From contig JBBELK010000481.1 in NCBI GenBank assembly GCA_037783545.1, positions 1,798,001 through 1,862,000 of the forward strand: 64,000 bases of DNA, read 5' to 3'. Source of the DNA: Henricia sp. BOLD:AAB3569. Taxonomy: Eukaryota > Echinodermata > Asteroidea > Spinulosida > Echinasteridae. The notes beneath the pieces are model-generated. The model saw only the letters and a list, made by a program, of their open reading frames with translations. It searched no databases and was not told the DNA's origin. Below, piece by piece: positions 1,772 to 45,560 of this stretch (position 1 is its first letter; every line of letters begins with the position of its first letter). Position numbers and translations under genes: made by a program.

Positions 1772-2053
1772 GCATTATGGGAAATGTTCCAACTTACTGC
1801 AAACGATGAACGACGTCGACCACGTGGAAGCAAGAAAGTGGTATTGTTTCGCGCGCGCCCAACGTGCAAAACCTGAACTGTGTTGCCATGTTGTTTTGTT
1901 CGTTCGGCTCGCGTCAAATTATTGCCACAGTTTCGTCGAAAGAATGTCATATTTTGCGGGAATTTGCTCTGCTAGCCAACCAGGGCTTGGTTTGGACTGG
2001 AATTTATGGTCTTTGGAGTTGGAAAACGGACCTGCAGGAAAGCTGTAATTTGG
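1772..2053 (+). promoter_or_regulatory. Possible promoter / first exon with a ZNF143-like site
   Basis: GCATTATGGGAA at 1772-1783 matches the reverse complement of the ZNF143/STAF core TTCCCATAATGC. It is followed by a locally CpG-rich stretch (CGACGTCGACCACGTGG, CGCGCGCGCCC) and by a donor-like TTTG|GTAAGTG at 2053. An 80-codon frame runs 1806-2048 but has no recognisable domain. This may be a first exon of a plus-strand transcript; the evidence is only these local signals. Confidence 0.2.
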
Positions 2054-13190: not shown

Positions 13191-13284
13191 TTACAAGAGT
13201 TGCCATAACTCACTGGGCGACACCGAGTGGATGTAATCGTGACACAACTCCCAGTCAAGACGTCTTGCAAGCTCGTCTAGTTCA
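13191..13284 (-). CDS. Terminal coding exon 9
   Basis: The acceptor CTGTCCTTCCATCTTCAG, with a strong pyrimidine tract, precedes 13284. Phase 2 entry matches exon 8. It encodes 30 residues (ELDELARRLDWELCHDY ... ELWQLL) and ends in TAA at 13193-13191. I saw no clear AATAAA within about 1 kb beyond the stop, so the 3' end is unplaced. Confidence 0.78.
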
Positions 13285-16200
13285 CTGAAGATGGAAGGAC
13301 AGGCTAATGTAAGTAGCACTCTTCATAAAAAAAGGGACACTTTTGCATATCTGTCATCCTTGGTATACACGTACTATTCCAGGCCTCGAAATTCGTGTTC
13401 AAAAGGGCACGGCAACAATTGCCTTGCCTTTTTCCACATTTCAAGGGCATCACGGTAATTCTGTCAATTTAAAAAGGGCATCACTGCAGTTTGCTCGAAC
13501 TTGGAGGGCACCACAACAATCATTAATAGTACTTAGCTGGGGTTGCAGTCTGAGGATTGTCTCTTTTATTTATCCGCGTTGAACATGGTATTGCTTCCAC
13601 CTCATCGATAAATCGTCTAGACCTTTCGTTGACATTCGCAACGCGAGCGCAACGAAACGCAGTTCCTGCGGCCGCCATTTTGTGTGCTACGCATGTACAA
13701 TGACCACGGTTATATCACGAACGTCATGCTAATGTTCGTACATATTCGTCTTTGGCCGTATTCTGCAATCGACACGTAAGTGCATGTGTACTTCATCATA
13801 GTCGTCGACGAGTGCACGCACGTGCTGTACACCGAACCCATGACCGAACCGCTAACGGATACCAATGAAGCCCGCTCAATGTACAATTTCGCACGGAAAC
13901 CAGGGCGAAGTTTGATTGAGCAACTACATACAGTAAACTATCGACTACAGAGTCACTCGAGCGACGGATATTTTCCGTGCTGTACACCGAACCGCTAACG
14001 GATACCAATGAGGCCCGCTCAACATGTACAATTTCGCACGGAAACCAGGGCGAAGTTCCGTTGTTCGAGGGACTTTCGTCGAACTGTACCCTTAGTACCT
14101 GTACACGTAGGCTACCGTGCGTGCTATGTGCTATAAAGCTCGGCGTGGTTTTGCAAAAATTGCGTACGGTTTCGTTGCATTTTTAAACAGCGGTGGAAGA
14201 GCTAGTTTTGTCTCCGAAATGTGTCACTAAAAGTGGGAAATTTGACATTTTCATCTGTGTTTTAATGAAGGGCACCGACGGCAGTTAAATAAAAAGGCAC
14301 GGCAATTTATTGCCGTGAAATATTCATTATTTTGAGGGCATCGCGGCAATAGCACAGGGCACCGACGGCAATTGCCGTCGGTTATTTCGAGGCCTGCTAT
14401 TCAGACTCAAACCTACATGTAGACTGGGGTTGAGCTCGGTCTTGCAGTCTAAATTAATACCCAGCGTTTGCCCTTAACATTTTTTCCCAACTGGCCAACA
14501 GGGCCAGTTGGCTTAAATCTTCCCTGGCCCGTCGGCATTTCAAGTGGCCCACCTGGTTACCGTTAAAACTTCTGGTTGTTCTTTTTACACACAGTCAACC
14601 TTTAAAGTTTGCAATAACCACATTTGAGTAAATAATTTAGGAAAATTTGGTAGTCATAATGTTCCCATTAAAAGTTTGAAAATGTGTGGTACATTTTAGA
14701 GCTTTCTGGTGAATTTTAGAGCTATTCTGGAGTCTTGAAAGGCTCTTTTGTTATAAATTCTCAAGGATGCATGTTTTTGTGCAACAGGGAATTGCATATG
14801 CAGTTCTAAGTGTTAGTGTACCGATACTCTTGGGGGCAGTTATACAGAATTAGCCCATACCAGGGCAGAGCTGGTCTCTAACTTGTTGGGGTCAAGTCAC
14901 TTTTTTTGTTTTTGACCTGTGACTTGACCTTGGAGAAAATTACTTGTGACGAGACTTGGGAAATATGATTGATTTATGACTTGAAATAAAAACTAGTCAT
15001 CATTGCATGTTTCCAGCCCCAGAGACATACAAAAAACTGCAAGTGCAGTCTTTTGCTCCAGGGGAATAAATTGGAACAAGGCCGGCCAAGGACATCAGTA
15101 TTATGGCTGTGAGAGTTTTTAACGAAAGAAACTAACAGGACATGGGTCTGTTTTATTGCAACTGGACAGCCGGACCATTTGGGGAGGTATTCCAGCTGGC
15201 CCAAGACGATTTCAACTGTCATTTGGCCAACGAACCAGTGCTAATTCGAATGCTGCATACCACTGCAATAGAGTAAGGCTGTGCCTAACAAATAAAATAT
15301 TAAAATATTCGGTATGTGTTTTTACCACTCCAAACATGTCTTCAGCTAGGAAGAAGTAAAAAACCTTTTTTCTTTGTAAAACGGCTGATTTGATGTGTCC
15401 AGTGTACAAGGGCTGACGATAACTTCTGCAAAAACCTCTTCGAACGAGAGACTGCTATGCAAGTACCATGATAAAGGTCTATGGGCTAACTACCATAAAC
15501 CAAGGACAATCAAGGTGGCTGCTTAAACAACATTTTGGGGGAATTCTTAATGCTGATTAATTCAGACATGCCTAAAACCCCGTTCTCACTAGAAAAATCG
15601 CTTTGTTCGACGATGATTCGACAAAGAGATTTCCTGATGTGAACGCACGTCTCTTCAATCGACGATGATTAGAATCGCTTCATTTGATGAAGGAAATAGC
15701 TTAATTCGACGAAGAGATCGCTTTATTCGACCAAGCAAATTTGTAATGTGAACGGCTCCCTTCGTTCGACGAAGCGATTTGGCGGGCCTGTTGCACAAGC
15801 GCGTTGTGCGTCGAGCGCCTAGCAAGAGTTGTTTTTGACGCGCCGCTGGAAAACCACACAGTGCGTTTAGACGCTTGAAGCTCAGCGCTTGATGCGCGAC
15901 GCACATGCAGCGTTCGCCCTTAACTTTTTTCCCAACTGGCCAACAGGGCCAGTTGGCTTAAGTCTTCACTGGCCCGTCGGCATTTCAAGTGGCCTGGTTA
16001 AAATTTCCGGTTGTTCTTTTTACACACAGTCGACCTTTAATGTTTGCAATAACCACATTTGAGTGAATAAATTAGGAAAATTTGGTAGTCATGAGGTTCT
16101 CCCCAGTACAAGTTATATTTCAACTGGACAGCCGGACCATTTGGGGATGCTTTCCAACTGGCCCGAGATGATTTTAACTGTCATTTGGTCAACGGACCAG

Positions 16201-19200
16201 TGCTAATTCGAACGCTGACATGTACGACCTCCTCAATCTTCGACCTCATTCAATCTTCGTTAGCGGTCGCTCTTCGTTAAGTGATATATAAATGCATGCT
16301 TCATTAACTAACAATGATTAATTACTCTTCGTTGAACGAAGCGACTTCTCTAGTGAGAACAGAGTCTAAGTTTGGAGTCATCTTACCTCGTCTCAAGTTG
16401 AGGTGGCGTTGCCAACATTCTGATTTCCTGAGCTTGTAGCCACGCTTCAACGTCCTCACTGGAGTCGACTGCTGTCCTCCTAGGGCCATACAGCAACATA
16501 CCCACCCTGAAATCAGACACAAAGCACACACTACAATCAAGACAGAGGTCTCGGGTTCGAATCTCAATAAAACCTACGTGGTTTTTCTCTCATTCCATGT
16601 TTAGTACCATGGTCAAGTGGTCTGGTGTATCAGACTCAAAGCCATGTTTCTGCAGGTTATGGGTTCAAATCCATGTATGGTCCATGGTGCATGTGTCCTC
16701 GACACTTATGAGGAATCCTTGGTTTCAGTACCAGAAAGAATAATAGTTCATTGAATGTCATCATGCAAATTCAGGGGTAAGCATGGGGCCTTTAAAAAAT
16801 GGGAAGGGGCGTAGAGAGAAGTAAAGTTGGAATTGTTTTAAAGGCACAGGCTCGTCAGCAATGCGCGCGCCATGTACTTTAATTTAGATTAAAGTACATG
16901 TACCTTTTATGAGTGTAGACTGACACACACAAAAAATTAATTAAAACATTGTTGATAAATACGTCCAATAATGATAAATACTGGCCAATGAACACGTCAG
17001 TTGCCAGTAAACCTTCGTGGGCTGCATGCACGCACGGACACAGTCTTGCCCCCCCCCCATACACTATGTGGACTTCTTTTTGTTCGCATGTACTGTAGAA
17101 AATGTGGCCGAAAATATTTTTTTCCTCAAAATCAAAATGCAGGATTTCGCCCTAACTTTACAATTAGTTGAAGGGCATCGTTACACACTTCCCTTTTTTT
17201 GAACCCTCTTCCCTTATCCTTTTTTAAAATGCTAAGACAACTCGTGCTAAGACAACTCGTGCTACCTGGTTTATGCAGACCTCTTTTGTCCTAAAGTTCG
17301 AATAGTGTATGTAATGCTCGTACACACACAGGTGCGAATCCACATACAATCGCGGACGTCCCTTTGTTCCTCTTTTGTTTGGACATAGTCTATTTTTCCT
17401 TACTCTCGTTGGTTTTGTACAGGAGCGAATCGCGGACGTTCGCTTGCCAATCGCGGACGATATTGTTCTCTTTGTTAGACCTCCCTAAAACGTCCACGAT
17501 TGTTTGGGAGAACAAGCGCACACTCGCACAACTACCTGGCAAGTATGAAGACTTGCACAAGTCTGTTTCACAACGTTACTGAATCAATTAAAAGAGCTAG
17601 GACACTCTTTCCAAACTCCAGAGGGAAAAAATTGGGTCTGTCAGTAGAGAAAAGCGGGAAAATAAAGTCTTGCATGCTCAACGACAAAAAGCGGAAATCT
17701 TCACAAACTTCAAACTGTACCTCAGCATGGCCTCGGTCAAAGTTGGTCTCTCCGCAGGATTATCGCTCAAGATTCGAGCAAACAAAGCTTGTCCCTCGCT
17801 GGAAAGAAACTTGGGAGGTTGATATGTGACCACTGGGAGTGACTTAGCCGTCATTCCAGGCGAAGGTGGCAGGACATCGTCGACAGTTTCATCAGTAAAG
17901 ATGTCGCATAACATGGCAACGGCGCTGTACATGTCGGAACTTTCGTAGACATCAACCAGGGTTAACTACGGAACAGAATATAAAATGGGGAAATTGTTTA
18001 CATTTTCGGAAAAAAAGTTCAAAACAAAAAGTTTAAAAATTATTGTGAATCACCGTGTACAATGTGGGTTTTTCCACAGTAAAGGGGGCATTTTGGCAAC
18101 ACAGACCATACTTTCGAGGAAATACCTTTGTCTGGTCTCAAAATAAAAGAAACAAGTTTCAGTTGTTCTGAAGATATAACTTAAGGGTTACAAATAGTGT
18201 GACAACATGCCTTTTTAAAAACCCTGTGTACAAATTTCCAATATATACGCTCGTAACCGGGACGGCCTAAAATGTAACAAGTGTCCGTCCCAGTTACGAG
18301 CGTATATTGGAAATTTGTACACAGGGTTTTTAGAAAGGCATGTTGTCACACTATTTGTAACCCTTTTTGGGCTTAAGTTCTGGAAAATATGGTCCGTGTT
18401 GCCAAAATGCCCCCTTTACTGTGGAAAGACTCATTTACCAAACTCGAACTTGGTTAAAGCAGGATTTGCAGTGTCCCAAAATTGTTATTGACCGTTTATC
18501 AACGGGGAAAAACTGGACTCGACTGGAAGGTAGAATTGGTTCCAACTGTCCAATGGAATGATTCTGCCAAAAATTATATCTTTTTATGAGAAACTTGTTT
18601 TTCTCATAAAAAGATATAATTATTTTAAGGCTACATATTCTGTGCGGTATACCCAGGGACCTGGCCAAAACTCGCTGGGCCCCCGGGGGAGCGGGGGAGG
18701 TGGCACAACCATTTTGGCCAGGATTGTAGCTTAAATAGGATGGTGGTTTTGCACAATTTCTTGAAAGCATGGACACAGTATTTCAATGATTTCTCAGAAC
18801 GTAGATGAGGTACTCAGCTGACTCATACACAGGTTGGTTTCTTGACTTATAAAAGAAACCAAAAATTTGTTTGGGAACATCTTTTATTTCAAAAAACAAA
18901 CTGTCGATCTATACTCACAACTTTTTGCCACGATTTTGGAGGTCCATTTATGGAAAACTGCAAGAGTTCTGGGGACCACGCCAACTTGTTCCCAGCCCCG
19001 ATTTGGCTCTTCTCCACAAACGGAATTCCTTGTCCTTCGTCATTAAGCAACTTTCTGGCGTACCCAAACTCTGCCAAAACGAGTCTCAAGCTCCAGTCTA
19101 TGACCACGGCTTTTGAGTTGACGTCGCGATGCGCCACGCCGTGGTTACGCAAATGCAACAACGCTTTGAGTAGCTGTAGCAATAATCTCAAAACTAACTC

Positions 19201-22200
19201 TTCCCTCGGGGGTTGAACCCGGGCGCCGTTTGCGGACGAACTGTTGCCATCCGTCCGCAGCGACGATACCAAATGATCTAAAGTTGTACAGTAATCGGGA
19301 AAGATGACAATCGCAGTCCTGTCTGCTAATTGACTAGAGAGGGCACTGTCCAGAAACGTCGAAATGTCCAAAAGGTTACGAAGTTCCGATGTCTGGATGT
19401 CGAAATGATGGTATATTCTCGTGATGTGCGGATGTGGTGCGTCGCGGAGTGACTCCAGTATGCTGAATTCGGCTCCGCGCATGTCGGCCGAACATGTGTG
19501 ACTTGAGGGTCTAGGCGATCGTCTATGATTCACTAGAACCTGAATTAAATCCAGGAAAAAAATTGAAACATTGTTACAACACTTTCAAAAGTGGCACACG
19601 GTAGAGTACGATAGAACGCGGTGCTATACCGTGCTCTACCGGCCCGAAAATTGCGTAAAATCACGTCGACGGTCGTCTCGAGGGTCGACGGTCACTGTCC
19701 CCCCGGTAGGGCGCGGTTCCCACACGGTACAATACGGCAGAACGCGGTAGAACACGGCGCCAACACGATGCAAATGCGGTAGAACGCGGTAGAGCACGGT
19801 AGCCTCACGGTACATGCGGTAGGAACACGGTACATGTACAGCACGGTGTAGCACGGTAGAGCGCGGTAGAACACGGTAGCCACATACCGCGGTCTACCTT
19901 ATATCTACCGTGTTGCTACAGTGTTCAAACGTACATGTACCTCCCGGTAGAACACGGTAGAACGCGGTGTCTACACGGTAGCCCCGGCGCCAACACGGTG
20001 TCCACACGGTAGAGCCGGTGCCAGCACGGTAGCGCATGGTAGAGGCGACGCAGCCGGTACAGTGCAGTGTCCGTGCGGTTAATTCTTAATTTTTAAACAT
20101 TTTGAAAATTAGAAATCCGTTTCCCGGCACAGCGCGGTAGCCTACGGTACAGCACGGTAGAGCGCGGTAGCCCACGGTACCGATACGGTTACCTCTGCGG
20201 TAGAGCACGGTAGATGCCGATCTTCAACCGTGCTCTACCGTGCTCTACCGTACCTCCAATGTGACTGTAGCTTTAGTGCACTCCTCTCTACTCACACATC
20301 CGAGCCTCTGTTTAAATTTGTACTGTTTTGTTGTTGAAGCAGCAGCAGAAAATTTGTCGCCGCTCCAGGCCAATCAAGACACTTGTAACATGGGGCGTTC
20401 CGTGTCAAATTTTGTATACGTGGGTCTTTCCACAGTAAAGGGGGCATTTTGGCAACACAGACCATATTTTCGAGGAAATACCTTTGTCTGGTCTCAAAAT
20501 AAAAGAAATAAGTTTCAGTTGTTCTCAAGAGATAACTTAGGCCCAAAAAGGGTTACAAATAGTGTGACAACATGCCTTTCTAAAAACCCTGTGTACAAAT
20601 TTCAAATATACGCTCGTAACCGGGACGGACACTTGTGTTACATTTTAGGCCGTCCCGGTTACGAGTGTATATTGGAGATTTGTACACAGGGTTTTTTAGA
20701 GAGGCATGTTGTCACACTATTTGTAACCCTTTTGGGGCCTAAGTTATCTCTTCAGAACAACTGAAACTTATTTCTTTTATTTTGAGACCAGACAAGGGTA
20801 TTTTCTGGAAAATATGGTCTGTGTTGCCAAAATCCCTCTTTACCGAGGAAGGACTCACATGCACAGATTGTAAACACAGTGCATGTCCGTGCTCGGCGCA
20901 CTTGGGGATTGGCTGCTATTTTAATCCTACAGTGGTACATGTACAAAGGCAATCTGTTTTATAATTATGTTTGGCAATTTGCATCCCTTTGATTAATTTG
21001 AAAAAATGCAAAGTAAATAAAAACATTGCCGGAAATTTCGGTGGGAAGGGATAGTCATAAAAAATACATCCAAATGACTCATGTGTGCGTTCGCTAAGCG
21101 TAACAGCCGCTTAACTTCAAATCTGTGCTGGTATTTCCTCAGGGGGATTGTAATGCACTGAGCAGAGTGGAAATACTCAAGATCTCAGGATGCAAAAAAA
21201 TGACATTGACCCTGTTCTCACTTGGAAATCGCTTCGTTCGACGATGATTAGTTAATCATCGTTAGTTAATGAAGCGTGCGTTCTCATCTCAGTTAACGAA
21301 GCTCGAATGAAGAACGGTACCGTACACATTATAAGCGACTGCTAAACAAAGATCGAATGAAGTTGTGCGACGCCCTCTGTTGATTGATTTTTACACTTAC
21401 GGTGTAAAATTGTAGACTGGTCCCCTGTCCATGTGCGATACGCTGCTCTCGCTATACGACGAAGGGGATGTAAATATGAGGACAGGGAACCAGTCTACTA
21501 AAATTGTGACCTTAAGACCCGACATGACCCCCATATATACACCAATCCGGTAACTAATATCTCCTCCCTGCATATCCGCCATAGCTGGGGGGCGTCCAGT
21601 GCATGGGCTGTGCATTTTGTGTTGCTGTTAGAACGAAAAGCGCTCATCCATTACATGCACGAACGAGCCTCCTTCGCGTATACGCAACGCGCACACAACC
21701 CTACAAAGACGCGCAACTTGTTCAAAGTAAAAAAATGCAGCTTCAGCAACAACAAAAACATACAGTTCCCCAGCTATGGCGGATATACAGGGAAGAAGAC
21801 CTTATTACCGGATTGGTGTATACCGGAAATACGTATTAAGGTCACTCATGTGTCAAATCGCTTCGTCGAACAAAGGAAGCGTTCGCAATAGAAATTTGCT
21901 TTGTCGAATGAAGCGACCTCTTCGTCGAATGAAGCTAATTTGCTTCGTCGAATGAAGAGATTCTAATCATCATCGAATGAAGAGGCGTGCGTTCACATCA
22001 GAAAATCTCTTCTTCGAATCATCATCGTCGAACGAAGCGATTTCTCATTGTGAATAATGGTAGGTGAATATGGGAGTTAAGACAAACTGGAGAGCTCAAA
22101 ATATTTGATACTTAAATTTTGCAACGCTAATCCTACATATGCACGAACACCAAAGCATCAACTAGATGTTTACAAGTGTACATGTACCACCTGCTGCGCT

Positions 22201-25200
22201 GACGCAAAATTATTGTCTCCTTAGGAGTTTGAAACCAAGATCAGAATTCTATTCACAAAAGAAGTATTGTCTCTATGACCCCGTTCTCACAAGTGAAATC
22301 ACTTCGTTCGACGAAGATTAGTTAATCATCGTTAGTTAATGAAGCGTGCGTTCATATATCACTTATCGAAGATCGACCGCTAACGAAGATCGAATGAAGC
22401 CGTGGGGGGTCGTACATGTGCGTCGCGCATTACATGTAAGTGCTGAGCTTCAAGCGTCTAGACGCGCTATGTGGTTTTCCAGCGGCGCGTCAAAAACAAC
22501 TCTTGCTAGGCGCTTGACGCACAACGCGCCAGGCCCGTTAAATCGTTCACATGACAAATTTGCTTCGTCGAATGAAGCGATCTCTTTGTCCAATGAAGCT
22601 ATTTCCTTCATCAGGAAATCTCTTCGTCGAATCATCGTCGAAGCGATTTCTCTAGTGACAACGGGGTCTTTGATGTTGTTCTAGAATCCCAGTTTGGCAA
22701 GCACAAAGAAGCTCAAAACAGACATGCCATAGAAGCACGCATAAAATATTACAATCCTCGGTATTGAGGAAACTCACCTTCATAATGTACGTTTGATTTT
22801 TAAAGAGAACCCGCAGACACATCTGAGATATGAATCCGTCTTCAGAATGGTTCAATTCCCTGTCCACGGGTCTCCCACCCAAGATCTTATAGTCTTCTTC
22901 TAATGTCCACTGTTTCCCTGGCTCGTCCGAGAATTCCTCGTTCATTTTGTTCAGGCTTGCTCGTATCATGTCAAGCCTTTTCACTGTTGTCACCTTCAAG
23001 ACGGCGATTGCCGCTTTTCCCTCCTGCATCAACGCAAAAACTTGCTGCAGGCTGGAGTCCTGACACAAGTAGGGTTTTTGGAGGTAGGTACAGATGCTCC
23101 AGGTTTCAGTGTTTTGCTTCTTACGACACAAGCTGTTGCACTCGGAATTCAAGCTGTCTGTTCTGACCGAGGTACTCAATGAGGATGAATCAGTTGACGA
23201 GTTGTCTAATGAGTGTCTTCGAGTGAATCCCTGCTGCGATTGCTTCAGGTGGAACAACTCAAGCACCAGCTGGCGATTTCGGGCATCCGATGCCCTTCTC
23301 TCCAGCCGTTGTCTTTCCAAGTCCTCCGTCGTTCCGTGAAGCTTCTGCTCGAGTTCCTTCCGGATGAGTTCCTGGCTCGGGCTGCCGCCACCCTCGCGAA
23401 GCTGCATTTCTAACGCTTCCTTCTGCGAAGTCAACAGCGCCATCTTGAGTTGCAGACTGTCGATCACGCTGATGTAATGATCGCGCTCAGTTTCTTCCTG
23501 TTGCCGGTGGAAGTCCGTCTCATCCGACATGATATTGCTGACTTTGGCCGGGTCGGAAAACTCTCTGATATTTAGAGGTCTTCCGAAAGGCAACGTTGGG
23601 GTTGGATCCGAGAAGGGCCTGTGGTGATGGTGAAAGCCTGGGCTGGATGGCTTCTGGGAGAGCTGGTTCAGGGTCGTTTGGATGGGTTTGGTTCCCGGTC
23701 TAAGTAAGAAGAAAAATGGATTACCTCGTGTGCTTTTCAGGCATCTTCTAAAATCCCGCTAGCAGTTGACGCCAGGATTATTTTTGGCGAAAAATACAAT
23801 TTTTTTATAAAGGCAAATATGATTGGCCAAAAGTTAAGATCGGGTCAAGCACCACAAATACCGACTCTTGAGAGTCATTTCTACATTCATTGTATGAATC
23901 TTCTCACCAAAAGATCATCTTTTGCAACACGGACGCCATAGACCGATATTTGCTACACTGACAGGCTGTCCACAGCCGTCAAGTTCACGATGTGGACAAG
24001 TTTACACGTCAACCGTAGAAGACAGCGGCAAAGCTGACATTTTAACTCATCAACCGCCCCTCTGACTATACATTGCCAGATCATGTTTACACGTCCTCTG
24101 GCGTCAGATGGTTAAGAATTGATCAAGATAGTTTAACATCGGAATTGTTTATGCTTTCCTGATGTAATTTCTGAACACTCTATCATGTCTATGCTCAGGA
24201 GCAAGAAATATGTCAGTGTACTCAAGTAGGGCTCGAACCCACAACCACCTACACTCTAGAACAGACACCTTAACCTCTTGACCACCAAGTAAACTGGTGC
24301 TGAATGGCTGGTTTGAGGTAGTACTGAGCTTACTTAAGGTGGATTCACACTGATCTTTTTCATTCGCACGTAAATGCGACGCGCGTCGCTTTTAGAAAAA
24401 GCAGTTTGGAGGGATTTTGGAGTGAAATGAGGTAATCACAGAATCAACTTGGGCGGGAAGTGTTTTTGTGATTCTGTGAATTTCAGTGCCTCATTTCATT
24501 CCAAAGTCCTTCCAAACCGCTTTTTTTAAAGCGACGCGCATCGCATTTACGCGCAGGTTGGTTTTTATCGTACACATCTTCAATCACACTTGGAAATAAC
24601 GCCAAGTTTCCCATCCATTTCTATTTACCTCTCATTCATCTCGACTTGTTTTTCCAGCGAAGACGCAAGGAGGTTCTTCCTCAGGCTCGTCTTATGGTTT
24701 CGCAGCAAAGAGTCGTCGCTGTCGCTGACGTGTTGTCGTAGTCTGGCCTTCGCGATGTCGCGATTTCCCGCTGTGAGTGGGTAGGACGAGGATCGGTGAG
24801 CTTTGTTGTTGTTGTTATTGTTAAGACGCAAGAAGCGCAGTGTTAATAAGAAAGAAAAGAACATAAAAAACGAACATTTCCAAATGTGCATGCTATAGTT
24901 AGATAATAAAGAGGCATACATTTTTGCATACTGATTTTGAAAGCAATAGACCGATCCAGTAAGCTCCGCCCATTTTGGAATTGACCAATCACAGCCTCAG
25001 GTAACCAAAAAGTGGATCTCCGTTTTGGTGACCCGAGTCCTCAAAATTTTGTGCACAGAGATACGACAAACTGCAGCACGAGTGACACAAAAACACAATA
25101 AACATCATTTTTATCAGCGCCCAGGACCCTAGCCAGTTTTCAACGGATTGTTTAAGATTGGCCAAACCTACTTTTAATACATACATAAATACTTTTTTTG

Positions 25201-28200
25201 TGTAAATCGGTAAAATTCATCAAAATTTATAGCTTGTCGTTTTGCCATATTTTGCATTCACTTTCCTACACCGCATTCTAGATGTGCATCGTTGAGTTGT
25301 TTTGTTTGATCGTGTGCATTACACGTAAAGCTAATGTGTTGTGCGCGCAAGCACATGACCAGATACTTGTCACAGTGCACATTTTGCTTTCCAGCATGCA
25401 GTTTCTGTGTGCGTGCGCGTGTTTCATACGCGCTGACCAGGACGTGGGCGCGGCCGGAAAGCAGTAAATAAAATGCTATGTTGACGGGCAATTGCTAAAT
25501 GGGCGGAGCTTACTGGATCGGTCTATTGAAGAGTTCCATCGCCTTTAAAACATGGCTAGCGCAATAAACTGATGCCCAATTTCCACCAAACCTCGTCTGA
25601 TAGTTCTTGAAAACCTTACCTTCCATGTGTCTATGGATTTTTGGCAGAATTTTGTAATTTAATTATCGAAAATCCAAGGTTTATAAGTCAATGACAATGG
25701 TACGTATGTCATGCAAAAAAGTGCATGTTGCAACCGCTGTTGTTGCCCTCTAAGATGGATTTTCAAGAATTAAAAGGACAAATTCAGACAAATCCATAGA
25801 CGGACGCAAGGTATGATTCTCGAGAACTATCGGACAAAGTTTGGTGGGAATTGGGCAGCAATTTTTTGCTCAAGCCATGTTTTAAAGGGCCCCTGAAATG
25901 GTGTTTTTATCAATGAAATATGTGCTATGGAACTAGTCCATTAATTTACAATCATAAAATCCTACTTGGAAGTTGTTTGGGGTGTTAAAATCAAGGTTTT
26001 TGATTTTTATGCTAATGAAAATTTACATATGCATGAGCAAAGTGCACGGTGATGTCACTTTAGGAAAACACAGGAAAATCTCATTCAACTGTGTACAAAA
26101 GTTTCCACAATTTTTTCCACTTTGCTGAAACTTTTGTAACCCATGACGGTTTAGGTTTGTTTTACATGTTGCCTGTTGCAAACCATGAAAAAACTAATGC
26201 TGGAAACAGCAGCATTTTTCCACATTTCCAGTTTGAAGTGTTATGTTTTTTCTTTGCTTTTCTGCTGTGTGTTCCTAAAGTGACATGCCCCAAACAGCGC
26301 CCTCTTTCTGTGAGTTTATGTGAAGAAATTTTCAAAGTTGAAAAATGCCACTTTTTATTCATGAGGCATCAAAATGAACAGTAGTATTGTCTTTCTACAC
26401 AAGTAATCCTTCATATGCAGCAAAAACTGTGCATAAAGTTATTGAGCATTTCATGCCCTTTAATGTCCGCTTGTTAAAGTTGCTGCACAACCATACATAA
26501 TAGTTCCAGGGGTGTACATGTATATACCATATACGGCAATGTTAGTAGAAAATGTCATTAAATATACAAGATGACGATAAACAACATGCAAATGAGGAAT
26601 AGACGAGAATGAAACTACACACGATAATATATAAAACTGGTCTATCCAACTTTCAAAATGCATGCCCGTACTGATGGATATTGGAAACGTTAACATTCGA
26701 AAAAAAAAAAAAAAATCAGTACTGATCGTTAAACAGAATAAACACACTTTGCGGATCCAGTATAATCCTCGTACTTCCCCCTTTGAACGAAATTATGACT
26801 CATCCGACGTTTCCTCTAAAAGCAAAAGTGATGAATTGAAATATTCATTCCAAATGCTTTGAAATTAATATGTGCATGATGACTGTTGGTTTTAACCTTA
26901 CAATTCACTGCAGACGGAAAAGGCAAAATTCCAACAACAGCAATTATAAATCAAAAGGAAGAAATTTCAGCTCTGTCAAATGTACCACGTTTTCCAAAAA
27001 CATGAAAATCCATATGCGTTTTACCGGTCTTGGCTGGGTGTTTCAAATATTCGTTCTCAGTCAGTCGCGTACTCTGTGGCTCGCGTCATGCACTCTGTGG
27101 CGCGCGTCATACAACAACATGTGCGCGCGACCCATAGAGTTAAACAAATTCAACAAACACGCAGTACACAGCGGCCATTTTGTACCACCCAGATGAGAAC
27201 TGTTTGCAAATGATTTAAATAATTTTATCTTCATGGATTATTTATGGATTAATAAGTAGGTTTGGCTAGTTTTAAACATATGTTTTAAACCGTATAGGGT
27301 CCTGAGCACTGATAATGGCCCAAGCCGAAGGCTTGTTCGATCGCGTGCCTTACGCGTAATGCAAGCGTGTTGTATGCGCACGCACACGACCGGGTACTTG
27401 TCACGGTGCACAATTTGCTTTCGGGAGCGTGCAGTTTCTGTGTGCATGTGCATGTTCCATACTCGCTGACCAGAGCGCTGGTGCGGCCGCTAGCGAGGCT
27501 CAAAAGTGTTTTAAGACTGACTGGGCCTTTATTATCTGTTTAAAACTGCCCACGTGATGTGCTTTCAGCCAATAGGGATGCGTAAACTGTCTAAGGTATT
27601 TATGAATATCTGGTAAAATTATATCATCTCGGGCGGAAACATTTCATTGTCCGGCATGTTTTACTACTCGCATCTTCCACATGGTTACTAGGTGACGTCA
27701 TTACACTGTGCCTTACACCAGAGACCCGGCCACGAGCTCCGGCAGTGGTGTCAGCCACCAGAGCAGACAAGTGTAAGTTGGTGTTACACGGTGTAAGCAT
27801 CTCGAACGCCCCTACTAATGACATGACGCCAGACCCAAATTCGTCTTACCAGGTTTTTTTTCCGAAAACATCCTGGTGATATCCTTGTGTTGTGCCCCCT
27901 CTGCCTCATGGTGGGATGACTTGCCGTGGTTATTGAGAATGTCCGGGTTGGCCCCGTGGCAGAGGAGCATTTTGCAGGCCTCGGATTTGCCGCGGAGGGA
28001 CGCGAGATGTAGTGGCGTGTCGCCTTTGTCATTTTGGGCATTTACGTTGGCTCCACTAAGAAAAACAAACAAACACAATTTATTTAAAGCCCCAATACAT
28101 CATTTGCCGTTTCCCAAAAATTTACTTCACGAGTTGACAAGAAAAACCTGAATAAAAGTGCTGATAGCAATGGTAACAAAATGTATGATTTTTCCCATGT

Positions 28201-31112
28201 AAAATGGTACCTTTCTAAGAGAAATTGCCAACTGAAGGTGCTTTTTTTAAAATGTCTGCAGACAATCTTTTTTATCATTCATTCAACACAAAAACCATGC
28301 ATGGATTTTTTAGGTTTTCTGAAGTACATTTCTGAAATTCATTCTGAAGTACATATCCAAAATGGGCTGAAATTTCTACAAAGCAGTTTATCATCATTAT
28401 TATTTCGTTATGTAATGCTGTTGTTCCTGTTTTAAACAGTTTTTTGCGCGTGTATTTGACGCGAATACGTTGCATTATAGCCGTTTTCAAAACCACTTAA
28501 TTCGGCTTCAGACGATCCCATGCGATTTTCTGTTCTGGCCGTGTGTACTCTAATTGTTTAGGTTTTGTTGGTGGTTGTTATCTACTCTCAGCAGAAGTGA
28601 ACGTTCAAACAGACGTACAAACCAGATATGTTAAGCCGCGTTAATATTTCTACGGAGATGCACTAGGCCTGAGCCTGCCAATTCGTAAAGAGTACTTGCA
28701 AACCGGAAACTAAAGATCAAACATCTTTATTTGTTTGTGACAATTTCGGACAACATTTTCTTCATTGAATCGGTAGAATTTAAGGTGCTTTATAATTTAT
28801 TGGTGTTTGGGCGCTTACAAACGTGGTACGGTAAAGTGATAATTCAAAGAAGATCATCGCAACATTAAAACCCCTTTAGCATTCCCTGACAGGTCTCCGC
28901 AAGTGTGACACCCAGTCTATTGCATTGCTTTGTGTAAACGGATAAATTACATGTAGTTTACAGAATATCGGTGTTTTTTTTTTATAATATCCTTGAAAAT
29001 ATACGGATTGAGAGAGCGAAATTTCAGAATGGTAATGAGAAAAATATGACAAATGATATGGTACTATCAAACCCTCAACACCCATGGGAAAAATGGGGGC
29101 GTCAAAAATGTGATCTAGACAGTGGACACTACTACCGCTTGGCGAATAGCTTGATTAAATGATTAATCGCGAGTAGTAAACAGTACTCGTACTCGTGACT
29201 ATCATTTTTAAACTACTCGATTAATCGTGGCGCCGCGAGTACCGTTACATACTTGCGAATAATCGCGATTATATGCTATATTGTTACATTGTAACGGGCC
29301 TGTTTCCCAGCACACTTAAAAGGCGACCTGTGTGCAGGTGACTTATTTGTTGTGTATGCCGACTATTTCAATTCACTGTGTCTTTTGTGCTAGCCGAAAA
29401 TCCGACAAGCATGTTTTGAACCACAACGATTAAGTACAACGACTGCGTGTACGCCCGGTTCAATGAACTGTTTCATTGCGCTACTTGTAAATTCGCGATT
29501 AATACATGCTATGTTACATATGTGACAGTAGCTACATGCATGGGTTGAAGGAGAATTATGGCAAACTTATGCCGTCTAATCGCGAAGCATGACCGTTTGA
29601 TTTTCATTACTCAAAGGTAATCGAGGTAGTTTTTTTTTTTAGGAGAGAAATTCAAAATAATCCTTGCTGAAGTTCACTATCTATATATGCACAGATTAGG
29701 CAAATTTCCGCTGTACAGTTGGTTACTTATACACACAAACATGCATTTTGTTTTTCCCTCCCTTTTGATACCTTGCCAACTACTCGTGATTAATCGATTA
29801 CTCACGAGTAATTGCTGCAACTACTCGCGAGTAGCAAAATCCACTAGTCGCCCAGCGGTAGTGGACACGCTTCTTCAACAGTTCCATGAAATTGGCCCTA
29901 GATCAAAAGCTCATATTGGCAAAACAAAATTGGCGGTGCTAGGACATTTTGTCCAACCACTTTGTCTAAATTCACGTTCTGATCTATTATTACAACTCCT
30001 GTTTTTTTTGCTTACTATCGCAGAAGATGCATGATGCACTCGGTGTGGCCCTGATATGCAGCCGCGTGGAGTGGTGTCGAACCCCACTTGACCGCTAGCT
30101 TCACGTCAGCCTCCCTGCTGAGGAGTAGTCGACATATCTCCCAGTGTCCTCTGCACAGAAATAAAATGGAAACATTCCAATCAGTAAGTTTTTAGAATAA
30201 AAGATCCCGTTCTCACTAGAGAAATCGCTTTGTTCGACGATGATTCGATGAAGAGATTTTCTGATGTGAACGCACGCCTCTTCATTCGACGAAGATTATA
30301 ATCTTTTTGTTCGATGAAGCAAATAGCTTCATTAGACGAAGAGATCGCTTTATTCGACGAAGCAATTTTGTAATGCGAACACTCCCTTCGTTTGAAGAAG
30401 CGATTTGGTAGGCCTGTTGCACAAGCGCGTCCTGCGACAAGTGCCTAGCAAACATTGTTTTTGGCGTACCACTCAAAAACCACACAGCGTGTCAAACACA
30501 AGTTTGACGCGCATTTACGGCCAGGCACAAGTCCATTTTACACGGGCACTAAAAACTGGGGTCCTGTGCGATGAAATTGCATCTACAGTTGTAGTCAGAA
30601 GTTTACATACAACTGTGTTAAAACTGGTGTTCTTAAGCTTGCGTTGTCACCATTTTTTTAACAGTCTTTACTAAATTCTTGATTTTGTGGAATTCCTCAC
30701 GTGCATGCAGTACTTAAAACATAGCTTGTACACCTTGCAATGGTTAGGGTAGTCCTGTTTACCATTTTGGGTGATGATGGTAGTGGTGTACATGTATGTA
30801 AACTTCTGATTTCAACTGTATGTCACAAACTCAGGGATACACACATGTATGGTGTCGTGTGAAAGTGCATCCCTGTCACCAAATCGCACGGGTTGCCATG
30901 TGTACCATCGCGCGGATCGAGACCTCAAAAATGTCATCGATGCGATGATCACTGTGTAAAATTTAATAATTAAAAAACACTTACCCGCATGCTGCCCAGT
31001 AGAGCGGCGTGGCACCATCACTGTCCCTAGAATTAACCAGCGCACCTTCCCGAAGTTCAGCCAAGACTCGGTGGTATATTCCCCGCTTAGCAGCAAGGAT
31101 TAGCTCAGCCAT
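13191..31112 (-). CDS. Ankyrin repeat - coiled coil - PINK1-like pseudokinase, 9 coding exons, 870 aa
   Basis: Seen: nine minus-strand segments joined at GT..AG borders give 2613 nt (870 codons plus TAA). They are 31112-30985, 30150-30016, 28055-27850, 24770-24629, 23699-22778, 19539-18919, 17965-17721, 16506-16387 and 13284-13191, and phases agree at all eight junctions. Residues 1-131 hold about four ankyrin repeats (TPLHAAA, TPLHLAS). Residues 264-360 are heptad-rich, and 364-390 are Ser-rich after RRHSLD. The kinase fold has IMK at 509-511, a candidate helix-C Glu at 535, HRD at 648-650, EFG at 668-670, SPEL at 700-703, helix-F Asp 729 and helix-I Arg 791. Family knowledge: APHPHI..I, AHRD, the GAGN..SPE segment and a C-terminal extension with LLYGP/WLQAQ resemble PINK1. 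Odd: no GxGxxG, HRD is followed by VNSKA (catalytic Lys and Asn lost), and DFG is EFG. Inference: a cytosolic scaffold-type pseudokinase. No N-terminal mitochondrial targeting signal is apparent. The exon chain is secure; the family assignment is moderate. Confidence 0.86.
13380..14396. mobile_element. hAT-like non-autonomous element in intron 8
   Basis: 1017 bp with termini CAGGCCTCGAAAT / ATTTCGAGGCCTG and a target duplication CTATTC (13374-13379 and 14397-14402). Inside, a direct repeat (GTGCTGTACACCGAAC .. ACCAGGGCGAAGTT, 13823-13913 and about 13978-14057) and GGCACGGCAA units near both ends. No transposase frame. Confidence 0.7.
14462..15255. mobile_element. CAGCGTTYG element, long form
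   Basis: Begins CAGCGTTTGCCCTTAAC and ends TTCGAATGCTG. It carries AACTGGCCAACAGGGCCAGT near the left end and CTGGACAGCCGGACCATTTG near the right. It is the same family as 15908-16217 and 50722-51092 but has extra interior. Confidence 0.65.
15577..16366. mobile_element. GACCCCGTTCTCAC element, interrupted by a CAGCG element
   Basis: The left end ACCCCGTTCTCACTAGAAAA with many TTCGACGAAG motifs. The right end TTCTCTAGTGAGAACAGAGTC is the inverse. The intact copy at 22277-22668 shows what the uninterrupted form looks like; here it is split by 15908-16217. Confidence 0.7.
15908..16217. mobile_element. CAGCGTTCG element, short form, with ACATG duplication
   Basis: 310 bp with ends CAGCGTTCG / CGAACGCTG. 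The flanks are ACATG at 15903-15907 and 16218-16222. The uninterrupted target in the sister element (inverted near 22405-22435) has one ACATG, which supports a 5-bp duplication. Confidence 0.75.
16387..16506 (-). CDS. Coding exon 8: C-terminal extension of the kinase
   Basis: The acceptor CTGATTTCAG precedes 16506 and the donor GACGAG|GTAAGA follows 16387; residues 800-840, phase 2 in and out. It encodes VGMLLYGPRRTAV followed by SSEDVEAWLQAQEIRML. A short leucine/tryptophan-containing helical segment just after the C-lobe recalls the PINK1 C-terminal extension; this is a resemblance by eye. Confidence 0.78.
16605..16740 (+). repeat. tRNA-derived SINE fragment upstream of exon 8
   Basis: GTCAAGTGGTCTGGTGTATC with GTTATGGGTTCAAATCC, then CGACACTTATGAGGAATCCT, a tail also seen at 40734-40750. 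A second B-box-like GGTCTCGGGTTCGAATC lies at 16546-16562. Confidence 0.5.
16840..16878 (+). repeat. Half of the GGCACAGGCTCGTCAGCAATG MITE
   Basis: TTAAAGGCACAGGCTCGTCA followed by GCAATGCGCGCGCC matches one end of 58441-58580. The rest is replaced by an AAAGTACATG hairpin. Confidence 0.45.
17721..17965 (-). CDS. Coding exon 7: kinase C-lobe
   Basis: The acceptor TTCTGTTCCGTAG precedes 17965 and the donor CTGAG|GTACAG follows 17721; residues 719-800. It encodes helix F (SSDMYSAVAMLCDIF), a linker, FLSSEGQALFARIL and the helix-I hallmark DNPAERPTL. If the donor is not used, translation would run 14 more codons to a TGA at 17678-17680. I prefer splicing because exon 8 continues the fold in phase. 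Confidence 0.88.
18064..18433. mobile_element. Palindromic MITE (family P, subfamily 2), in intron 6
   Basis: The ends GTGGGTTTTTCCACAGTAAA and its near reverse complement enclose arms containing CCTGTGTACAAATTTCCAAT and TACGCTCGTAACCGGGACGG, each present inverted on the other side. It is close to the copy at 20420-20857. Confidence 0.75.
18567..18625. repeat. Short perfect hairpin in intron 6
   Basis: TTATATCTTTTTATGAGAAA and its exact inverse are separated by CTTG-type loop bases. Confidence 0.6.
18919..19539 (-). CDS. Coding exon 6: kinase core with altered catalytic motifs
   Basis: It has 621 nt, residues 512-718, phase 0 at both ends. The acceptor TTTAATTCAG precedes 19539 and the donor GTT|GTGAGT follows 18919. 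It encodes VLVN directly after the beta-3 Lys, helix C (RGAEFSILESL), APHPHITRIYHHF, a hinge-like IFPDYCTTLDHL, LLLQLLKALLHL, then HGVAHRDVNSKA, LVLAEFGYARKL, GAGNKLAWSPELL. HRD is kept. The Lys and Asn of HRDxKxxN are Asn and Ala, and the DFG Asp is Glu. Confidence 0.92.
19596..20250. repeat. CACGGTAGAGCGCGGTAGAA minisatellite in intron 5
   Basis: About 40 variant units of (C/A)RCGGTAG(A/C)RCNC cover 19596-20250 and are interrupted near 20080-20125. The first and last units are inverted (CCGTGCTCTACC), so the array can fold back. It begins 57 bp from the exon 6 acceptor. Short frames within it are artefacts. Confidence 0.75.
20420..20857. mobile_element. Palindromic MITE (family P, subfamily 2), in intron 5
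   Basis: 438 bp with the same termini and internal palindrome as the copy at 18064-18433. It keeps about 65 bp of sub-terminal arm (TTGTCTGGTCTCAAAATAAA and inverse) on both sides, and the 18064 copy has lost this on its right side. A 174-codon frame across it is a by-product of the palindrome. Confidence 0.75.
21208..22060. mobile_element. GACCCYGTTCTCAC element split by another insertion, in intron 5
   Basis: The left half (21208 to about 21370) has GACCCTGTTCTCAC and TTCGTTCGACGATGATTAGT. The right half (about 21848-22060) has runs of TTCGTCGAATGAAG and ends AGCGATTTCTCATTGTGA. The centre is a different repeat (21375-21845). Confidence 0.6.
21375..21845. repeat. Insertion containing an inverted AGCTATGGCGGATAT pair
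   Basis: ACCAATCCGGTAACTAATAT..CATATCCGCCATAGCTGGGG at 21534-21592 recurs inverted at 21772-21833, and a third copy is at 39760-39812. AGACTGGTCCCCTGTCC / GGACAGGGAACCAGTCT at 21416-21500 forms a separate imperfect hairpin. Confidence 0.5.
22277..22668. mobile_element. Intact GACCCCGTTCTCAC MITE, in intron 5
   Basis: 392 bp with ends GACCCCGTTCTCAC / GTGACAACGGGGTC. The interior is rich in TTCGTCGAATGAAGC and in AAAACAACTCTTGCTAGGCG. It lies within 110 bp of the exon 5 donor. Other members: 15577, 21208, 30203. Confidence 0.75.
22778..23699 (-). CDS. Coding exon 5: coiled coil, Ser-rich region and kinase N-lobe start
   Basis: This is the longest exon, 922 nt, covering residues 204-511. The acceptor CTTCTTACTTAG precedes 23699 and the donor ATGAAG|GTGAGT follows 22778. 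It holds a Pro/His-rich start (HHHH at 227-230), a heptad-rich helix at about 264-360, a Ser/Thr-rich stretch after RRHSLD (a plausible basophilic kinase site), a second helical segment, and then EEDYKILGG..VLFKNQTYIMK. The last codon is the presumed beta-3 Lys511. No GxGxxG loop is present between YKILGG and the Lys. Confidence 0.9.
24215..24297 (-). repeat. tRNA-derived SINE head in intron 4
   Basis: On the minus strand CTTGGTGGTCAAGAGGTTAA (A box) and TGTGGGTTCGAGCCC (B box). The stems are incomplete. Confidence 0.5.
24338..24562. mobile_element. MITE (family T), in intron 4
   Basis: An imperfect palindrome: AAATGCGACGCGCGTCGCTTTT..AGTTTGGAGGGATTTTGGAG and the inverse CTTTAAAGCGACGCGCATC. 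The centre is TGATTCTGTG/CACAGAATCA. Confidence 0.65.
24629..24770 (-). CDS. Coding exon 4: charged linker
   Basis: The acceptor CCCACTCACAG precedes 24770 and the donor GAGAG|GTAAAT follows 24629. It encodes residues 157-203, a helical, Arg/Asp/Ser-rich stretch (RLRQHVSDSDDSLLR .. LEKQVEMNE). Phase 1 entry matches exon 3 and phase 2 exit matches exon 5. The domain is not recognised. Confidence 0.8.
24945..25527. mobile_element. 583-bp MITE in intron 3
   Basis: Perfect ends AATAGACCGATCCAGTAAGC..TCCGCCCATTT and the inverse at 25497-25527. The interior has GCGCGCAAGCACATGACC-type sequence shared with 27236-27510 and 54003-54360. Confidence 0.8.
25884..26462. mobile_element. AAAGGGCCYCTGA element, in intron 3
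   Basis: Ends AAAGGGCCCCTGAAATGG and, inverted, AAAGGGCATGAAATG. The body has GTTTACATGTTGCCTGTTGC. Homologues: 45684-46116 (reversed) and part of 56400-56575. Confidence 0.6.
26925..27510 (+). repeat. Two repeat blocks shared with 43875-44200 and 54003-54360 (intron 3)
   Basis: 26940-27180 (GAAGAAATTTCAGCTCTGTC, CAAATGTACCACG, TTCGTTCTCAGTCAGTCGCG) matches 43915-44130. 27255-27500 (TAGGTTTGGCTAGTTTTAAA, GGGTCCTGAGCACTGATAAT, TGCACAATTTGCTTTC) matches 54008-54340 and, inverted, 25133-25480. Confidence 0.55.
27850..28055 (-). CDS. Coding exon 3: ankyrin repeat 4 and linker
   Basis: The acceptor TTTTTCTTAG precedes 28055 and the donor CCTG|GTAAGA follows 27850. It encodes GANVNAQND, the complete repeat TPLHLAS..GKSEACKMLLCHGANPD, a truncated His-rich fifth unit and a basic linker ending EKKP (to residue 156, phase 1 exit). 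Confidence 0.9.
28084..28395 (-). repeat. Family R repeat in intron 2
   Basis: Reverse-oriented copy: AAGCCCCAATACATCATTTG, then GAGTTGACAAGAAAAACCTG and GATAGCAATGGTAACA. It ends in a stretch matching the 4435 copy. Confidence 0.55.
29131..29861. mobile_element. hAT-like element in intron 2
   Basis: The left CTACCGCTTGGCGAATAG and right inverse CTACCGCTGGGCGACTAG are flanked by TGGACAC(T/G). Sub-terminal ACTACTCGATTAATCG blocks are on both sides. It shares them with the short element 61594-61934. Confidence 0.65.
30016..30150 (-). CDS. Coding exon 2: ankyrin repeats 2-3
   Basis: The acceptor TTTCTGTGCAG precedes 30150 and the donor ATA|GTAAGC follows 30016. It encodes residues 43-88 (the rest of repeat 2 and most of repeat 3, with GHWEICRLLL and TPLHAAAYQGH). 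It enters in phase 2 and leaves in phase 2. The join to exon 3 rebuilds the ankyrin hairpin LLRYGANVNAQND exactly, which confirms the splice. Confidence 0.9.
30203..30505. mobile_element. Truncated GATCCCGTTCTCAC element, in intron 1
   Basis: The left terminus and the TTCGACGAAG-rich half match 15577-15890. The right half is missing. It lies 52 bp from the exon 2 acceptor. Confidence 0.6.
30586..30818. mobile_element. Tc1-type MITE with Sleeping-Beauty-like ends, in intron 1
   Basis: 233 bp flanked by TA. The ends CAGTTGTAGTCAGAAGTTTA and inverse CAGTTGAAATCAGAAGTTTA closely resemble the outer repeats of salmonid-type Tc1 elements (the Sleeping Beauty lineage). No coding sequence remains. 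Confidence 0.8.
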
Positions 31113-31203
31113 CTTACGGCTTAGCGGCGGGGACAATGCCTATATCTCCTCGTCTCCCTGGTAGACCTAATGGTAGTCGTCTCTCCTCCTTCATCGAGGT
31201 CAC
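30985..31203 (-). CDS. Exon with start codon of the ANK-pseudokinase gene (coding 30985-31112)
   Basis: The acceptor TTTTCTCTTCCAG precedes 31203 and the donor GG|GTAAGTG follows 30985. The ATG at 31110-31112 has the context AAGATGG, and an in-frame TAG lies 30 nt upstream inside the exon, which fixes the start if the exon begins at 31203. It encodes the first ankyrin helix pair and the TPLYWAAC start of repeat 2 (residues 1-42, phase 2 exit). Because an acceptor precedes it, at least one noncoding exon and the promoter probably lie at higher coordinates; I could not locate them securely. Confidence 0.85.
31114..31194 (-). promoter_or_regulatory. Upstream ORF, 26 codons, ending one base before the main ATG
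   Basis: On the minus strand an ATG at 31192-31194 opens a frame of 26 codons that ends in TAA at 31116-31114. The main start codon follows after a single G (TAAGATGG). The uORF lies wholly within the start-codon exon as bounded by its acceptor. This layout is known to permit termination-reinitiation or to damp main-frame translation; that it does so here is inference. Confidence 0.5.
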
Positions 31204-31689: not shown

Positions 31690-32352
31690 TAGGAGGTCAT
31701 GGGTTCGAGTCCCGCCCAAGCACGCTATGAATTTTAAGCCTGTTCTCGGGAAATTCGCCCGCTTTAGGATATTTGAAATTGCTTTTCAGCACTGGCAAGC
31801 TTAGTCAAGTAGTCATCTGCTTAGTATGCAGGAAGTTGTTGGTTCGAGTCCCACCTGAGCACGCTATGAGTTCTTAGCTTGTTCTCGGAAAGGTCACCTG
31901 CTTTAGGATATTATTGCAATTGTTCTTTGGCTCTGGCAAGCTTGGTGATCGAGTACTTGTCTGCTCAGTATGCAGGAGGTTGTGGGTTCGAGTCCCACCC
32001 AAGCACACCATGAGCTTTTAGCCTGCTCTCTGGACAGTCGCCCGCTTTAGGATATTTAAAATTGCTATTCGGCACCAGCAAGCTGGGTGGCAAGTAGTCA
32101 TCTGCTTTTTACAGTATGCGGGAGGTTGTGAGTTCGAATCTATCCAGAGCATGTTCTCGAAAAAAAAAAAAACTATAGTGTATGGTGCATACACTGTGTC
32201 GTGTATGGGTAAATTACAACATCCATTTAACGCAATAATTATTTTATTTCATATATTTTCATTCACCTGATTTTAGAAATTTAAACCCGTCGACGGTTAA
32301 GGCGTCTGCTCAGTATGCAAGATAATGTGGGTTCGAGTCCTACCCGAGCATG
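31690..32352 (+). repeat. Tandem array of five tRNA-derived SINE heads
   Basis: The B-box motif GGGTTCGAGTCCCRCC followed by GAGCACGCTATGA recurs at about 31703, 31843, 31987, 32131 and 32333 with about 142-bp spacing for the first four. Each copy carries CTGCTTAGTATGCAGGAGGT before it and CTTTAGGATATTTGAAATTG after. The stems are imperfect, so these are not tRNA genes. Confidence 0.7.
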
Positions 32353-42928: not shown

Positions 42929-42981
42929 TACTTATCTACGGAGCCCGTAAAGGGACATGAGTGAAAAAAAAGTTTGAGACA

Positions 42982-43365
42982 AATTTACGTTCGGGCGAAC
43001 AATATTTACGTTCGGGCGAACAATATTTACGTTCGAACGAAAAATATCTTCGTGCGAATGAAAAATATTTACGTTCGAACGAAAACAATCTTGGTGCGAA
43101 CGAAAATAATCTTTGTGCGAACGAAAACAATCTTGGTGCGAACGAAAACAATCTTGGTGCGAACGAAAACGATCTTGGTGCGAACGAAAACGATCTTCGT
43201 GCGAACGAAAACGATCTTCGTGCGAACGAAAACGATCTTCGTGCGAACGAAATTTAAAGTTCGTGCGAACGAAAAAAACAGTTCGTGCGAACGAAAACAA
43301 AAGTTCGTGCGAACGAAAACAAAAGTTCGTGCGAACGAAAACAAAAGTTTGTGCGAACGAAAAAA
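42982..43365. repeat. Left-arm tandem array of the fold-back element
   Basis: About 17 units. The first dozen have an exact 21-nt period (TTACGTTCGGGCGAACAATA to CTTCGTGCGAACGAAAACGA). Later ones are 20-23 nt. Because 21 is divisible by 3, several frames stay open for 90-147 codons; these are not genes. Confidence 0.85.
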
Positions 43366-45228: not shown

Positions 45229-45331
45229 AAGGGGGTTCACACTATCGCGGAAAAATCGAACTGGGTCAAATTTCAAATTTGTTGAACTTTGACCACGGTG
45301 CGGTTACCTTTCCAACGCGCATTTTTGTTGG

Positions 45332-45560
45332 TTCGCACGAAGATTATTTTCGTTCGCACGAAGATTGTTTTCGTTCGCACGAAGATTGTTTTCGTTCGAA
45401 CGAAGATTGTTTTCGTTCGCACGAAAATTGTTTTCGTTCGAACGTAAATATTTTTCGTTCGAACGTAAATATTTTTGGTTGGCACGAAGATATTTTTCGT
45501 TCGAACGTAATTATTTTTCGTTCGCACGAAGATATTTTTCGTTCGAACGTAAATATTTCT
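45332..45560. repeat. Right-arm tandem array of the fold-back element
   Basis: About 11 units of TTTCGTTCGCACGAAGATTG, the inverse of the left-arm units, with 21-nt spacing. Frames of 90-113 codons here are artefacts. Confidence 0.85.

Follow-up and report, generated by a model that had tools for sequence, protein, structure and literature searches.

To our knowledge, PINK1 is generally regarded as a solitary kinase of mitochondria with no close relatives in animals. An excerpt of an eLife 2017 study (PMC5679756) lists three insertions and an extension at the C-terminus among the features peculiar to PINK1, and reports that ubiquitin recognition needs the third insertion, Ins3, which lies between beta4 and beta5 and is unique to PINK1. 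The same excerpt places Ins1 early in the N-lobe, at residues 182-192 of Tribolium PINK1, where it is a remnant. It also states that the K219A change in PINK1 abolished the phosphorylation of Parkin and ubiquitin in cells and that D359A serves as the kinase-inactive form of Tribolium PINK1.

Several described proteins combine ankyrin repeats with a kinase domain. According to an excerpt of a second paper (PMC9573974), the ankyrins lie N-terminal to the kinase in TNNI3K and in ILK (452 residues), and RIPK4 and ANKK1 have the kinase first and the ankyrins last. The protein studied here shares its order with TNNI3K and ILK, of which ILK is far shorter, whereas RIPK4 and ANKK1 show the reverse. 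TNNI3K and ILK are TKL kinases, ILK being a pseudokinase, and we know of no PINK1-type insertion in either. TEX14, which belongs to another kinase family, has ankyrin repeats before its pseudokinase and a coiled coil after it; compared by general description only, it resembles our protein in the first respect and differs in the placement of the coiled coil. RNase L consists of ankyrins, a pseudokinase domain and a C-terminal ribonuclease domain. It thus also has ankyrins before a pseudokinase, but Pfam detected no ribonuclease domain in our protein. The original prediction for this locus, made from the sequence alone, had named other domain orders for known ankyrin kinases, which left out TNNI3K and ILK (PMC9573974), and RNase L as well. 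The order of ankyrins before kinase is not new in itself; the unusual feature is that the ankyrins are joined to a PINK1-like domain. Among the matches listed for open-licence PMC papers, no title or start of an abstract mentioned an ankyrin-PINK1 protein, and an oyster kinome paper contained none of the searched terms.

The window that we analysed is a stretch of 64 kb on contig C481 of a 740.7 Mb sea star assembly. The mitochondrial DNA of this assembly is echinoderm-like and probably that of a sea star: COX1 has 11 in-frame TGA codons, COX1, ND4L and COX2 (recognised by eye) stand one after another and are open when read with the echinoderm code, and tRNAs for Leu, Gly, Tyr, Leu and Asn are on the opposite strand, an arrangement typical of sea stars. 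On the minus strand of the window, from 31112 to 13191, nine spliced exons yield a single open reading frame of 870 codons followed by a stop codon (Table 1). All eight introns have GT-AG borders and the phases agree at all eight joins. Position 31203, where the range of the original prediction ends, directly follows a good splice acceptor in the 5' leader. A stop codon lies in frame ahead of the ATG; it sets the start at 31112 and leaves no room for a longer N-terminus within that exon.

Table 1. Features of the ankyrin-pseudokinase gene in the window (positions count from the first base of the window).
Feature	Position	Strand	Basis
5' leader exon piece (likely)	31113..31203	-	acceptor directly before 31203; stop codon in frame ahead of the ATG
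Exon 1: start codon and first ankyrin repeat, residues 1-42	30985..31112	-	splice sites, frame, codon test 0/500, Pfam Ank_2 (residues 4-96)
Exon 2: ankyrin repeats	30016..30150	-	splicing and frame, Pfam, codon test 0/500
Exon 3: ankyrin repeats; the repeat block ends here	27850..28055	-	splicing and frame, Pfam, codon test 0/500
Exon 4: linker between ankyrin and helix parts	24629..24770	-	splicing and frame, codon test 0/500
Exon 5: linker, two long predicted helices (residues ~254-365), beginning of the kinase fold as far as beta3 lysine K511	22778..23699	-	splicing and frame, codon test 0/500, structure model, motif positions
Exon 6: kinase fold beyond K511, through the SPE motif (HPHI, beta4-beta5 insertion, AHRD, EFG, GAGN-SPE)	18919..19539	-	splicing and frame, homology searches, motif positions
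beta4-beta5 insertion, residues 551-584 (34 residues), at the place of PINK1 Ins3	19321..19422	-	length and shuffle comparison; Ins3 as defined in an excerpt of PMC5679756
Exon 7: kinase C-lobe to RPTLTEAM	17721..17965	-	splicing and frame, codon test 0/500
Exon 8: first part of the C-terminal extension	16387..16506	-	splicing and frame, codon test 10/500
Exon 9: end of the C-terminal extension and stop codon	13191..13284	-	splicing and frame, codon test 103/500

The codon-use model behind the codon test was trained on 4,233 codons from the same genome. As a null we took 500 stretches of the same length from elsewhere in the window, free of stops except for the long exons 5 and 6, where stops were allowed; Table 1 gives the number of stretches that reached the score of the exon. 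For all nine exons the model preferred the frame that is read over the other five. No null stretch reached the score of any of the exons 1 to 7 (0/500 each, including exon 6), so that coding support is strong for these, fair for exon 8 and weak for exon 9. Since the codon test is weaker there, exon 9 and to a lesser degree exon 8 depend chiefly on their splice sites and phases. A codon-use scan of the 64-kb window found no comparable gene elsewhere in it (best outside stretch at most 17.6, compared to 76.5 for exon 5), and we found no second copy of the gene in the whole assembly. Splice sites, phases and codon use together confirmed the predicted chain of nine in-phase exons and 870 residues as real and support a single intact gene.

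We also considered that two adjacent genes, one for an ankyrin protein and one for a helix-kinase protein, were merged in the reading. Exon 5 does hold in-frame Met codons, and AATAAA or ATTAAA is found in seven of the eight introns, as expected for AT-rich introns, with none in the intron between exons 4 and 5. However, the phases agree from exon 1 through exon 5, and exon 4, the link between the ankyrin and helix parts, has no in-frame stop and is clearly coding. We consider a merger of two genes very improbable.

The N-terminal part is made of ankyrin repeats. Pfam reported Ank_2 with 139.1 bits and marked repeats across residues 4-126 in three stretches, compared to about four repeats when counted by eye. 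NCBIfam returned ankyrin or kinase matches only, all of them far below their cut-offs. For the middle part we modelled exon 5 alone from its single sequence and obtained two long helices, at residues ~254-308 and 311-365, with pLDDT values of 87-96 in the helix cores and a mean of 56.4 over the model. Pfam, this model and the exon chain thus agree with the predicted order of ankyrin repeats, helices and kinase fold in one gene. The predicted coiled coil is likely, but the heptad periodicity of this part was not above that of shuffled sequences.

PINK1 carries a mitochondrial leader, and we compared the N-termini accordingly with the PINK1 of the same sea star (described below). The window protein begins within its first ankyrin repeat, and a leader is absent, with the ankyrins starting at residue 4 and an in-frame stop upstream. 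Its first 40 residues contain five basic and five acidic residues, compared to nine basic and two acidic ones in sea star PINK1. The highest hydropathy over 19 residues was 1.05, which gives no clear membrane segment; this is a weak test, as none is clear in sea star PINK1 either.

The C-terminal part matched Pfam Pkinase with 36.6 bits (cut-off 31.7). A model of exon 6 alone by AlphaFold was uninformative (pLDDT 37.6). We took the roles of the catalytic motif positions as they are generally assigned in protein kinases. On this basis the beta3 lysine (K511) and the HRD motif with D650 are retained, whereas the catalytic-loop Lys is replaced by N652, the catalytic-loop Asn by A655 and the Asp of DFG by E668 (EFG), and there is no GxGxxG. 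Because the glycine loop, the catalytic-loop Lys and Asn and the DFG Asp are lost, the domain is by its motifs a pseudokinase. This point was absent from the original prediction, which had spoken of a kinase.

Two other readings of these motifs were weighed. A relative of PINK1 could still phosphorylate, using K511 and D650 and a Glu in place of the DFG Asp, in the manner of odd active kinases; CASK, for example, is active without the usual residues. The combined loss of the catalytic-loop Lys and Asn, the DFG Asp and the glycine loop speaks against it, as do the K219A and D359A forms of PINK1 cited above, and we regard continued phosphorylation as quite improbable. Worn catalytic motifs and the lack of a second copy would also be seen in a decaying, disused gene. 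Such a gene would hardly keep 870 codons without a stop or frameshift, intact splice sites and a strong codon bias, which makes decay exceedingly improbable.

To compare the pseudokinase with PINK1 from the same animal we used an ordinary PINK1 gene on contig C797, found with an 80-residue piece of Tribolium PINK1 as the query. We joined its eight exons, and the kinase part of the product agrees with solved PINK1s at 1e-82. When this sea star PINK1 kinase was searched against the whole genome (28 rows), the window gene came first after the top five rows, which belong to PINK1 itself, with E 1.6e-6 and a match of 30% across positions 54-204 of the query. All further rows outside PINK1 begin at query residue 91 or beyond and so do not span the beta4-beta5 insertion. 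With the 80-residue Tribolium piece as the query (38 rows) the window gene was the second gene (E 1.8e-4), the next following narrowly at 9.7e-4. The whole Tribolium PINK1 kinase placed it only as the sixth locus. In the opposite direction the window protein found C164 (E 0.105) and PINK1 (E 0.133) as the best other loci of the genome, both weak and tied. A query with exon 6 gave no relatives in prokaryote genomes, viral contigs or phages.

The main competing view assigns the domain to another family, PLK-like or unplaced, as a diverged pseudokinase whose PINK1-like insertion and loop arose independently. Among solved structures, phmmer ranked PLK4 first for the whole kinase part (33.2 bits, PINK1 30.5), whereas PINK1 came first (30.6 bits, PLK4 24.9) when the query was a stretch of 165 residues from exon 6. 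Smith-Waterman scores were 150, 134 and 140 with three PINK1s and 138 with a piece of PLK4, compared to at most 79 with 12 controls. In local HHalign comparisons the PINK1 profile reached 105.2, sea star PINK1 alone 78.9 and the PLK4 piece 74.4. In ten single or paired profiles the 15 control kinases scored at most 46.1; with all 15 pooled, in a profile with more rows, the score was 116. The global mode gave 87.7 for the PINK1 profile, 56.3 for sea star PINK1 alone and 70.3 for the PLK4 piece, with controls at 37.5 or below in the ten profiles and at 108.5 pooled. As the PLK4 piece here exceeds sea star PINK1 alone, this result lowered our estimate both of PINK1 kinship and of the explanation that builds on it, and raised that of the PLK-like or unplaced alternative. 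One ordinary kinase (47.0) also exceeded the window protein (44.6) in its score with the PINK1 profile. When PLK4 was used in reverse, however, its piece placed the window gene only 145th of 150 rows, with 150 of 317 candidates scored, compared to first or second other gene in two of the three PINK1 searches.

We then built a tree with 15 sea star kinases out of 30 fetched loci (the rest were copies or shorter matches and were left out), four PINK1s and the PLK4 piece. The window kinase joined PINK1 at 93/90, at a point where two long branches meet. A clade with PLK4, for which only the piece was available, is absent from the best tree and at p 0.252 was not rejected. The tree favours a place beside PINK1 with the reservation of these long branches, and leaves PLK4 as a contender. 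A count of PINK1-specific signature sites (13 of 30 aligned sites, compared to no more than 5, out of 21, in any of 16 controls) was set aside, because the N-lobe frequently stayed unaligned in the controls and common sites therefore looked specific.

Since the raw scores give PINK1 no clear win over PLK4, the case for PINK1 rests on the reverse searches, the insertion, the loop and an intron. From HPxI to beta5, the stretch that forms the beta4-beta5 insertion, the window protein has 34 residues, close to the 36-38 in all four PINK1s and far from the 9-15 in all 15 control sea star kinases. The FG-to-PE loop has 29 residues, compared to 28 in all three PINK1s and 19-27 in the 15 controls. Both stretches were picked by hand for a shuffle test of their similarity to PINK1; the score was reached by 74 of 5000 shuffles for the insertion and by 104 of 5000 for the loop. 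The window gene and sea star PINK1 also share an intron right after the codon of the beta3 lysine, in phase 0. By a hand estimate with four and six introns and ~1,080 sites, the chance of one exact match is about 0.02. We saw no other coinciding introns between the two genes by eye.

Other parts of the domain show less likeness to PINK1. At the place of Ins2 (alphaC-beta4) we found no PINK1 similarity, with 3333 of 5000 shuffles reaching the score; the distance from the beta3 Lys to PHP is 34 residues, compared to 48-53 in PINK1 and 17-28 in the controls. The N-lobe before K511 gave no confident alignment at the Ins1 site. The C-terminal extension, predicted to be PINK1-like, is so in length, but its sequence did not match PINK1 beyond shuffles: 184 of 2000 shuffles reached its score with the PINK1 profile, and none of its three matches among solved structures was PINK1. 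It was rejected as proof of PINK1 ancestry.

Taken side by side, PINK1 (including the sea star gene) and the window protein have in common the long beta4-beta5 insertion, the length of the activation loop, the GN-PE spacing, AHRD, the intron after the beta3 lysine and some 70-80 residues past the kinase core. They differ in that the window protein has ankyrins and long helices instead of a leader, a shorter distance from the beta3 Lys to PHP, lost catalytic residues and an unlike sequence of the C-terminal extension. The alphaC region and the C-terminal extension, together with the PLK4 scores and the clade that was not rejected, leave some room for a PLK-like or unplaced origin; given the rank in the PLK4 search and the fit to PINK1 of insertion length and position, loop length and intron, we regard it as unlikely. 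The kinase domain is, as judged from these comparisons, probably akin to PINK1. The predicted kinship is supported, with reservations, by the reverse searches, insertion, loop, intron and tree, and tempered by the long branches, the PLK4 scores and the short Ins2. As the leader, the catalytic residues and Ins2 were each looked for and not found, we do not class the gene as PINK1 itself.

With modest confidence we favour the explanation that the protein is a cytosolic scaffold of ankyrin repeats, pairing helices and a C-terminal pseudokinase that goes back to an old duplication of PINK1. In this copy the leader for mitochondria and key residues of catalysis would have been lost, and the PINK1-type beta4-beta5 insertion kept. 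The ankyrin repeats may bind a partner, and the long helical, probably coiled-coil part may pair copies of the protein. The pseudokinase would now act as a docking or switch domain in a protein that is presumably soluble and cytosolic. Because of the Ins3-like stretch, ubiquitin or a Ubl fold would be a candidate ligand.

We found the zf-RING_12 domain, which we take to be a mark of Parkin, in the same genome (four rows on two contigs, all above the cut-off), and the usual PINK1-Parkin pathway is therefore likely present. One can go further and propose a second old PINK1 branch, known so far from a sea star, that left the mitochondrion, no longer transfers phosphate and retains the insertion that faces ubiquitin. 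Linked to ankyrins and a coiled coil, such a protein would be soluble and would read or restrain ubiquitin or Ubl signals next to an intact PINK1-Parkin pair. We consider this extended proposal rather unlikely.

If the PINK1 origin is true, PINK1, which is known mainly as a mitochondrial enzyme, gains an apparently non-enzymatic branch outside mitochondria. This would allow us to ask what the fold and its insertion do beyond the phosphorylation of ubiquitin, and when PINK1 became mitochondrial. As PINK1 and a Parkin-type domain are found in the same genome, both roles could be compared within one animal.

The introns of the ankyrin/PINK1-like pseudokinase gene carry a GAAATCGCTTCGTTCGACGA-type element, which is probably a short transposon, and exon 8 lies only about 20 bases from the end of one of its copies. 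In the 144-base unit found upstream of the gene we observed the word GGTTCGAGTCCCACC, which we take to resemble a tRNA B box. The two arrays consist of one 21-base unit in mutually opposite orientation, and the first of them has an open frame that reads as a protein-like repeat.

Repeats and microRNA precursor located in the window
Feature	Position	Strand	Details
mir-375 microRNA precursor	1847-1919	+	61.2 bits vs gathering score 46.7
GAAATCGCTTCGTTCGACGA-type element	15574-15866, 16241-16366, 21225-22604, 30201-30492		gene introns; several copies, direct and inverted
144-base unit	31691-32137		upstream of gene; about 3 copies
21-base unit array, first	42979-43363		unit GTTCGCACGAAGATTGTTTTC / reverse complement
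21-base unit array, second	45331-45549		unit common to both arrays, GTTCGCACGAAGATTGTTTTC / reverse complement

Elsewhere in the assembly, the mitochondrial COX1 region is present on contig C955 in three copies (L001-L003) spaced 16,221 bases apart, and therefore the mitochondrial genome was probably assembled there as a head-to-tail multimer. Across contigs C291, C615, C221 and C1123 we also detected 20 clustered matches to the Pfam protein kinase domain (Pkinase) with near-equal scores (64.6-65.5 bits) and open frames of 157-159 residues. These may represent a recent kinase gene expansion, and part of them may be haplotype copies.
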